A program made the translations under genes and the position numbers. A stretch of DNA of 64,000 nucleotides from the NCBI GenBank assembly GCA_036172665.1, contig CM069875.1:24087806-24151805 (forward strand), in the 5' to 3' direction. This DNA is from Prosopocoilus inquinatus. Its lineage: Eukaryota > Arthropoda > Insecta > Coleoptera > Lucanidae. Positions 9,301 to 12,300 of this stretch are shown here, piece after piece (within the stretch, counting starts at the first letter, position 1; each line of letters opens with the position of its first letter). The notes under the pieces were generated by a model. The model made no database searches, was not told the origin of the DNA, and saw only the letters and a program-made list of their open reading frames with translations.

Positions 9301-12300
9301 ATATTTATCCAAACACTTTATTTTTGTTCAAATTAACAATTTCCTTGTCATTGTTGTAGCGGTTACAATAAACATATGGAATAAATACAGGAACTGAACG
9401 ATTTTCACTACATAATTCCAATTACATTATGAAAACGAATGGAAAGAATCTATTTATACTGTAAAAAATTCTATTATTTTGAAGCTACATATCAAAGAAA
9501 CAAATTGAATCTTAACATTTTTATACATTAACTAAGAAAAGCAAAATGTCTCCAATCACAAATAGGTTTAAAAAATCATAAAAATTTAAACTATTGAAAA
9601 GAATGTAAAAGAGCCGAGTACATCTTTATACTCTTGTTTCTTTACGTATCACCATAAAATAAGAATAGTACAGGTGAAAACAGTTTAGTAATAGTTTTTT
9701 GAAATTTATTTCATACTGATATTAGATTATATCTTTTTATGCGTATTTCAACAGGTACGCTGCTATTTTCAATCATCCACACGTGCACACTCTTTGGTTG
9801 GTATGAGCCAGCGGATATTCTCATTGAATCTCCAATAGAAATGAAGATAGTGGCGTGGCTGTCGAAATACGATTATAAACAAATTGTGATAAGAGATATA
9901 TTTTTTTCATTTGTTTACTCATATCCCCATAAAAGAAGTCGAGAGACCAATCTGATAACCATGGAGATCACTTCAAAGCATTACCACGCGTTCTAACCAG
10001 CGATTATCCAACCGATTCGTAATGTGTTCTTACATGACAGGAATTACCTGAAAAAAAACAGTTCAGTTCCTGAATTTATTTATTTATTTTTATTTAAATC
10101 ACGAAAAGTACGATAAACTGTATGGATGAATAACCTAAATGATTCTGAAGCGAATGAAAATATTATATAGGACGTTCCATAAGTTGATTATAAATAAGCA
10201 ATAATAACTCACAAATTATAAATCTTAAGACCATAGAATATGGTATGGTTGGAAAGTTTGTAGAAAGCACTATCCAAATATACTATAATATTTAGGGTGT
10301 TCTATTTGAAAAAAAGAAAAAAAAATGCTAATTTTACAATACGCGAACTGAATCGTAGTTGTTGTTGATAGTCGCTAGATTTATGAAAATGATGAATATT
10401 GTAAAAGTACAGGGATGTAGAAATATTTGGTCCATGGTTGATTGTCGTATCATTAAAATTGACAATTTGGCAGACGATCAAACATGACCGATTTTTTGCG
10501 TAAAATTAAAAACAACTCGATAAATATTAAAAATAATTAAGAATAATGTTATATCATATTTCTCGTCTCTTCAAGGGCTAACCGAAACTGCAATAAAATA
10601 AACAGTGTTCCATTTAAAAAATAATAAGTTAGGTTTGTAACTTTAAATGAACAACCTGTATATTTGAAAATAATTTTAGATTATGCGGAAAGAAAACCTA
10701 CACAACTTTTGTTAAGACCTTTTCTTGGTAAAATGAATTTAAAGAGGCATTTTTGGAGTTTTCCAGACATTTGGGACACCCTGTACAGCGAGAAAATAGA
10801 AAACTCGACACTATTTTTTCCTAGATAATATCCAGCAGTTACTGATGCTAATTCTTTCATCGATTAGTTAAAAATCGATTATTGGATTGAATTTTGTATC
10901 GATGTATTAATCGGTACAAAATAAACTTGTTTTTAGTACATTTTTAATATATATGTGTTTCTTTAACTTCTCCAATTTAAGTTGGCCGTAACAAAGACGT
11001 TCTATGTCATCGGTTAACATTTATAATTGAGTGCTCTGGACTGCTCTGAGAATATCTCCATCTTCGTTTTTACATAAGATTAAAACAAAACAAAATAGAT
11101 CTCTCAATTTTCATAACATATTCTAATTGAAATTCATTCAAAAACTCGACTTATTACCGCATATGTAAGCTAGAAAAATTAGCATCTATTTTCAAAAATC
11201 GATTTATTTGAGTGGCGATTAATCGAAAGTTGAAGATCGAAGAGAGAAAAAAACGATTTTTAAGAATCGATCTTCTCTATCCAATTGTGGCATGACTTCC
11301 GGCTTTAATTGCCGTTCTGCTTTTACGATAAAAGTCAACTTGAATAAAAGAATTTTCAAAACAAAAGTAAAATATAGTCAAATCCATATAAAAAATGTCG
11401 AATTTATAATAACCAAAAATTTAGTCTGCAAATATTAAAGGAAGAAAAGAAAAATGATCAGTTAATAAATAATTGAAACACTACCTTGTCCAATCAGTTA
11501 ACAATTAAAAAATAAAGTCAAATCCAATAAAAGACAAAAGAAAAATGACGATCAACCGACGGGATTAAAATATGTAAAATAAATTAAACTCACATCCAGC
11601 ACAAGAAAAAAAACATCAAAGGTGATCAATTGACGATTAAAAAATAAAACCATGTCAAATATTATCAAACAACAGATGATAAATTGGTAAACATATAAAA
11701 TAGCGACATCTTACTATCGCTTTTTGACCTAACATTGCAGTAAGATAAATTGGTAGTTAAAATGTAAAATGAATCAAATGAAATAAATCGAATAAAAGAA
11801 GAAAAAAAAAACAAAGATCGGATTTAATTTGAATTTATTGGGAAAGGAATTATACTGTAATGTAAAAAAGGGGGATATGAAAATCTGCAACATTTTTAAG
11901 CACAATAAGTAAAATATTAGTAAGAATACTAGAAGCAAGACTTAACATTGGAGGACACACAATAACAATTCAGAAGGGGGAGGGGAACGCAGAAGTTAAA
12001 TATTTGCTTTTAGACAGACAAGCGAGAAGGCAATAAGGAAACGAGAAGTACAGTCAGCTCTTTAGTAATGTCTCCCCTATAAATGTTAAATTACGAACTA
12101 ATGTCTTCTGACCACTGTGATTGGTAGACAGACAAGCAAACGAACAATGAGGTGAACAAACACAAAATAAACACACGAAATTAAATTCAACACGTGTTTG
12201 TTTAACTTTTAGATCACGACTTAAAATTTTATTGGGGAGACATTTCTAAAGAACATTACTGCACATTTTGCTTTACAGACATGGAAAAAGTCTTTGATAG

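Follow-up and report, generated by a model that had tools for sequence, protein, structure and literature searches.

A 54-bp unit in the genome of a beetle as a probable early-terminated insertion of a non-autonomous hammerhead retroelement

Penelope-like elements (PLEs) leave target duplications of about 8–15 bp. SINEs and 5'-truncated LINE copies are non-autonomous insertions characterised by a fixed 3' end, 5' truncation and target duplications. In the portions of the literature available to us, PLEs appear as no more than likely candidates for moving animal retrozymes. For PAc, a PLE of Anolis, the accessible part of PMC11167929 describes reverse transcription that starts at two internal sites of the RNA, with both target strands cleaved and extended in vitro. 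The same start-site use is described for both strands, the start is not homologous to the cut DNA, and the numbers in that source place the start sites, by our arithmetic, 85–92 nt after the cut. For the Penelope families of Adineta vaga, duplications of 8, 9 and 10 bp are given in the available part of PMC3846280.

Here, we analysed a stretch of 64 kb from a beetle, Prosopocoilus inquinatus (C7:24087806-24151805, hereafter the window), and searched the genome to which it belongs (649.6 Mb, 173 contigs). The window contains a 54-bp unit which an earlier note, made from the letters of the sequence, had described as a DNA unit that transposes alone. The unit at 11690–11743 is a genuine insertion. 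In our assessment, it very probably arose when a non-autonomous hammerhead retroelement of the metazoan retrozyme type, mobilised by Penelope-like machinery, inserted a single arm that terminated early.

The 54-bp unit and its relatives in the window

The unit corresponds to the 3'-terminal 54 nt of a monomer of 312 bp, which is repeated in tandem, head to tail. Positions of the element are given below on this monomer, and its two recurrent ends are called A (at 312, with the letters TGTT) and B (about 163–180). The relevant features of the window are as follows.

11678..11689, no strand: target-site duplication, first copy, GATAAATTGGTA
11690..11743, minus strand: 54-bp single-arm insertion, monomer 259–312 in sense on this strand, 3' end TGTT at 11690
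11744..11755, no strand: target-site duplication, second copy, GATAAATTGGTA
17164..17385, plus strand: older copy with unit, linker and hammerhead, ending near GCACAAAATTTTT (site B)
17297–17331, plus strand: hammerhead core CTGAAGA...GAAACACCTGTC of the copy 17164–17385
18187..18223, plus strand: Penelope-type hammerhead-like fragment, CTGAAGATGGC...CCGAAATACGTATC
22576..22612, minus strand: 37-bp single-arm insertion (40 bp if the shared GTT is assigned to the element)
32331..32342, no strand: target-site duplication CATGTAGAATAA, left of 32343–32620
32343..32620, plus strand: two-armed head-to-head copy of 278 bp, site B outer end on the left and TGTT on the right
32621..32632, no strand: target-site duplication CATGTAGAATAA, right of 32343–32620
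56929..57278, minus strand: older head-to-head copy of two arms, containing a hammerhead (CTGAAGA at 57034, minus strand)
57657..57665, no strand: empty site, a single A9 run in the related repeat 57430–57941

The perfect 12-bp direct repeat that had been noted around the unit is indeed present at 11678–11689 and 11744–11755, and neither strand of the window has GATAAATTGGTA at any other site. Of 20,000 random spots, 2 gave a perfect flanking match of at least 12 bp at such a spacing, with boundaries that may slide by 2. Read on the minus strand, in the hammerhead sense, the unit runs TTACTGCAATG...ATTTTATATGTT, and its base 259 is T where the monomer has C. The four letters of the second repeat that adjoin the unit (TATC in sense) also fit the monomer upstream of it; since TATC is common to element and repeat, the copy starts at either 259 or 255.

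The hairpin at monomer positions 281–300 (AGCGA/TCGCT) that had been called conserved is so as a sequence: across 23 distinct sequences (172 rows), pairs one to six are kept in 21–22 and the seventh in 13. Given that none of these sequences shows a two-sided compensatory change and that the fold (−9 kcal/mol) has a z of only −0.83, this is conservation of sequence, and the structure is not demonstrated.

The unit region is found at five places in the window. As had been claimed, it matches the end segment of the hammerhead elements (copies at 17164 and 57100–57278 and the one ending at 32620), and the statements on the TGTT side of two other copies also held. The copy at 32343–32620 ends at TGTT with its own 12-bp repeat, and the copy in an A-run at 22576–22612 lies between maximal 12-bp repeats, TAAAAAAAAAAC, at 22564–22575 and 22613–22624, three letters of which (GTT) may be assigned to element or flank. 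The repeat that received this insertion (22354–22900) has two A10 runs around it, whereas its relative at 57430–57941, 71% identical, has one A9 run and no unit. For the older copies, flanking duplications were not clear at 17164–17385 and none was found at 56929–57278.

The window also contains a FoxK-like forkhead exon (7025–7438, minus strand), a tandem array at 19625–20579 (5.5 copies of a unit of ~179 bp) and pieces of a mariner-like transposase with DDE_3 and HTH_48 matches (23487–24551, minus strand). The best named protein matches of the FoxK exon and of a 409-aa open reading frame are from beetles (Rhamnusium bicolor; Oryctes, Trypoxylus).

The hammerhead monomer and the resident Penelope-like element

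The monomer has a G+C content of 0.433 and contains the motif CTGAAGA–stem II–GAAA–(CAGCTG)–TC. The core lies at 81–115, with a palindromic stem III (CAGCTG) and a stem I that is very long in the fold. On this basis, the monomer is predicted to carry a type I hammerhead motif that would cut after position 115. Rfam gave no match at the gathering score; searches of two copies with E-value cut-offs returned mostly miRNA-like hairpins, with HH9 for one copy at a sub-threshold 16.6 bits (gathering 52) and no hammerhead match for the other. The longest monomer arm reaches 861 bp, or 2.8 monomers. When the monomer is tripled, one frame is open in 103 of 104 codons, with one stop per 104-codon turn, and the open frame that spans the copy 32343–32624 had no relatives in a protein search. 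With 312 bp, the monomer is too short for an open reading frame with reverse transcriptase (RT) and GIY-YIG domains. Exact-word scans of viral contigs and of genome contigs gave no match, and a literature search on beetle hammerheads gave nothing specific among the entries listed.

A genome search for GIY-YIG, in which the best 150 of 2,232 candidates were scored, gave matches most of which, among those listed, share one score, and many of which form minus-then-plus pairs. We read the matches of equal score as one young family with head-to-head copies. In one locus (L112), an open frame of 788 aa is flanked by two hammerhead-like motifs, and by its domain matches (RVT_1, 53.5 bits, 3.3e-14; GIY-YIG, 29.6 bits, 8.9e-7) the element is a PLE. 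At the two two-armed PLE loci that were read (L110 and L111), the arms are head to head, with ends at CTCACTATTTATTT and, 38 nt further, at GTGATTAT, and the maximal repeats measure 14 and 12 bp. The tail of the PLE ends ~88 nt downstream of its hammerhead motif. No match was obtained for this hammerhead-like motif in Rfam, or for the PLE open reading frame in a search by sequence against solved structures. Moreover, BLAST of the monomer against the PLE detected no shared sequence, so that recognition of the monomer by the PLE enzyme is something we infer.

In the window, the fragment at 18187–18223 on the plus strand, which resembles the motif of the resident PLE by eye, is probably a decayed pLTR. 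It should be noted that a second GIY-YIG family (L106, L108 and L109) carries another hammerhead-like motif, CTGATGAAGCAATAAATACATTGCGAAATATT in L106 and L109 and a variant in L108.

Insertion anatomy and copy length across the genome

A first search gave at least 41 genomic matches, the best 40 of 351 candidates being scored, and 39 loci were analysed. The query included the duplication of the window copy itself and the flanks of these loci are therefore biased; the apparent excess in this set of duplications that begin with TAC is an artefact of the query, and statements about the target accordingly use a second sample. It derives from the exact 33-nt 3' end with any base but C after it, of which the genome has 1,730 occurrences; the reversed pattern, used as a control, has 0. 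From the first-listed of these 1,730 occurrences, all on C1, 34 places were hand-picked, a choice independent of the flank except for the excluded C. This sample required the A end, thus insertions with B at both ends are invisible in it.

Exact duplications of at least 9 bp were found in 31 of the 34 insertions (at least 10 bp in 30 and at least 11 bp in 29), as compared to 54 of 2000 controls in which flanks were exchanged between loci. Their mode is 12 bp: 16 are exactly 12, nine are 13 and three are 14–15. The three insertions that lack a duplication of at least 9 bp are L054, L055 and L066, and the 9 bp of L048 extend into the element's own letters. The flanks are 66% A+T.

Two arms are present in 25 of the 34 insertions, every one of them head to head, and the outer ends are at 312 (TGTT) and 163–180 in 24 of these 25, the other (L066) being A/A (312). 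The first 39 loci are also mostly made of two arms head to head, with outer ends at 312 (TGTT) and near 164–180. All fetched sets together contain 54 young two-armed groups. In 49 of them the arms are head to head and the ends are A and B; two groups are A/A, two are A/other and one is A/B with the order reversed. For this tally, a group had exactly two aligned arms, ends at 306–312 or 1–14 were counted as A and ends at 158–192 as B, and groups with three or more pieces or with a best arm below 95% identity were excluded. Sites A and B are about 138 nt apart in the monomer.

This anatomy makes it unlikely that the family is mobilised by a LINE, by target-primed copying with 5' truncation, the head-to-head copies being twin-priming inversions. 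A constant 3' end, a variable 5' end and duplications would suit any target-primed process, and LINE-like fragments do lie near copies; however, twin priming predicts varied starts for the second arm, whose outer end is confined to 163–180 in 24 of 25 cases. Moreover, the junctions printed show no poly-A or simple-repeat tail, as TGTT abuts the duplication, and the resident PLE has the same two-ended layout at its two loci.

The duplication often shares letters with the GTT of the element end: at least one in 23 of 31, at least two in 17 of 31 and at least three in 8 of 31, for fractions of 0.325, 0.105 and 0.018 expected from flank composition. Primer–template pairing at the start would give such sharing, as would a cutting preference.

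Rare variants offer a view of the template. They are common to both arms in 13 of 77 copy pairs (64 unshared; no control for chance), a hint that each insertion drew on a single template source. Within arms, they are shared in 6 of 48 copy pairs and unshared in 42, and in L011 and L042 they recur in successive monomers. A head-to-head insertion at L026:2503-3750, with ends at 312 and about 317, contains in one arm both a diverged and a near-identical monomer, side by side, which argues that some templates are heterogeneous multimers. As to copying from a circle, the repeats in L011 and L042 fit it, whereas the 42 of 48 unshared within-arm pairs and the mixing in L026 count against it.

The remaining 9 of the 34 insertions are one-armed and measure 46, 47, 53, 53, 72, 135, 152, 152 and 252 bp, with a duplication of at least 9 bp in eight of them. 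Tiny insertions with retroelement-like duplications, which had been remarked on as unusual, are therefore real: those of 46, 53, 53 and 72 bp are so flanked (that of 47 bp is not) and have TGTT in common. At L049, a 39-bp inverted family piece adjoins the 3' flank of the 46-bp copy, and three short degenerate tail copies lie within ~500 bp at L045:744-1238. The one-armed starts fall at seven positions (61, 161, 161, 178, 241, 260, 260, 266 and 267), and the same 3' end closes copies that vary widely in length, the longest being 1,248 bp. Three one-armed copies (L048, L068 and L070; 161, 161 and 178 to 312) cover just the stretch from B to A; as a lead only, copying from A may have stopped where B is occupied.

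When family starts preceded by two non-family letters are counted in the genome, 45 fall at 260 and 45 at 264, and they are mostly inner junctions. We fetched and read 20 of the 45 copies that start at 260, the start-264 set being counted only. Five of the 20 are solitary with duplications of 9 to 13 bp (L087, L090, L094, L096 and L099), one (L101) is two-armed with a second arm of 12 nt, and the remaining 14 are inner junctions, rearranged or unclear. Given the spread of one-armed starts and the equal counts at 260 and 264, 54 bp looks like one among many truncation lengths. There may be a mild preference for 259–260 among solitary copies, with the start-264 set known as a count only. A defined 5' end of the RNA, considered for the inner end at 259–260 with an extra base in the window copy and L053, received no support from the 260/264 comparison, which consists of counts only.

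These lengths also bear on the claim that the 54-bp unit transposes alone, which is not supported; it is very improbable that the 54-mer is a minimal transposon in its own right, with both ends defined. Solitary copies with duplications do share inner ends at 259–260 (the window copy, L052 and L053 with starts at 260, and L087, L090, L094, L096 and L099, these last five found because the search specified a start at 260), and 260 is the start in 2 of the 9 one-armed copies of the 34-place sample. However, the other seven start at 61, 161, 161, 178, 241, 266 and 267, 260 and 264 do not differ in their number of starts, the fetched 260 cases are mostly inner junctions, and two-armed copies close on the same 3' end. 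At the level of the family, the 54-mer forms part of longer copies, which had been named in advance as a ground for refutation, although some copies are solitary.

That the copies are decayed satellite or array fragments with chance AT-rich repeats, rather than insertions, is scarcely credible even with AT-rich flanks and a family found in tandem, since duplications contrast so sharply with the swapped-flank controls (31/34 vs 54/2000), the A-run copy has an empty-site relative and family places lie on at least 13 contigs.

Proposed insertion mechanism and comparison with known systems

If the 54-mer is a truncated insertion of a PLE-mobilised hammerhead retroelement, the two recurrent 3' ends would be two start sites of reverse transcription, A at 312 (TGTT) and B at about 163–180. 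A staggered cut of the target would produce the 12-bp ends, as the duplications indicate, and one target strand would prime at A and the other at B, as judged from the anatomy. The observed two arms, with A and B as outer ends, could then arise when the two cDNAs are joined head to head. If only one cDNA is present and ends prematurely, what is left between the duplications would be a solo tail of ~40–70 bp, for example 11690–11743. The likely source of the enzyme would be the resident PLE, with its RT and GIY-YIG domains. Overall, the data suggest that insertion proceeds as in Penelope retrotransposons, with the two cut strands each using their own start point. We further consider it probable that animal retrozymes use dual-strand target-primed reverse transcription for their insertion, with a different internal start site of one RNA serving each cut strand, that a complete insertion consists of an A-arm and a B-arm flanked by the 12-bp duplication, with the resident PLE as the engine, and that solo tails of 40–70 bp represent the A-primed strand alone.

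The insertion anatomy, rather than the 54-mer, is thus the point of interest. The genome offers a test of the role of PLEs, with 1,730 intact 3' ends, a near-constant duplication length and A/B ends in 24 of 25 two-armed copies, to which a co-resident PLE with the same layout at the two loci read is added. The result obtained with PAc in vitro, two start sites with both strands extended, is hereby carried to insertion junctions.

Like SINEs and truncated LINE copies, the family described here is non-autonomous, with a fixed 3' end, 5' truncation and target duplications; unlike them, it has no poly-A tail, its second arm has a fixed end of its own and it carries a ribozyme motif.

The available part of the description of metazoan non-LTR retrozymes (Cervera and de la Pena 2020, PMC7229834) agrees with our family in the type I hammerhead motif, which is a predicted one here, in duplications of more than 4 bp and in small tandem monomers (150–450 bp) of low G+C, here 312 bp and 43%. 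It differs, as far as that description goes, in that the copies studied here have two arms, two fixed ends and 12-bp duplications, and the monomer has a very long stem I and a frame open in 103 of 104 codons.

The comparison with Penelope-like elements relies on the accessible parts of the accounts of PAc (PMC11167929) and Adineta vaga (PMC3846280). Unlike these elements, the monomer has no RT or endonuclease open reading frame, both of which are present in L112; its proposed start sites are ~138 nt apart instead of 30–40 (38 in the resident PLE), and there is microhomology at site A. In PAc (PMC11167929), the two strands do not differ in start site and the start lacks homology to the cut DNA; here one of each proposed site would be used, and the GTT of the element end recurs in 8 of the 31 duplications, differences that count against the mechanism. 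The likeness to PAc lies in the two internal start sites of reverse transcription (PMC11167929), and that to both Penelope systems in the head-to-head inverted copies, one with an extra tail, the predicted hammerhead, the duplications and the AT-rich targets (PMC11167929, PMC3846280).
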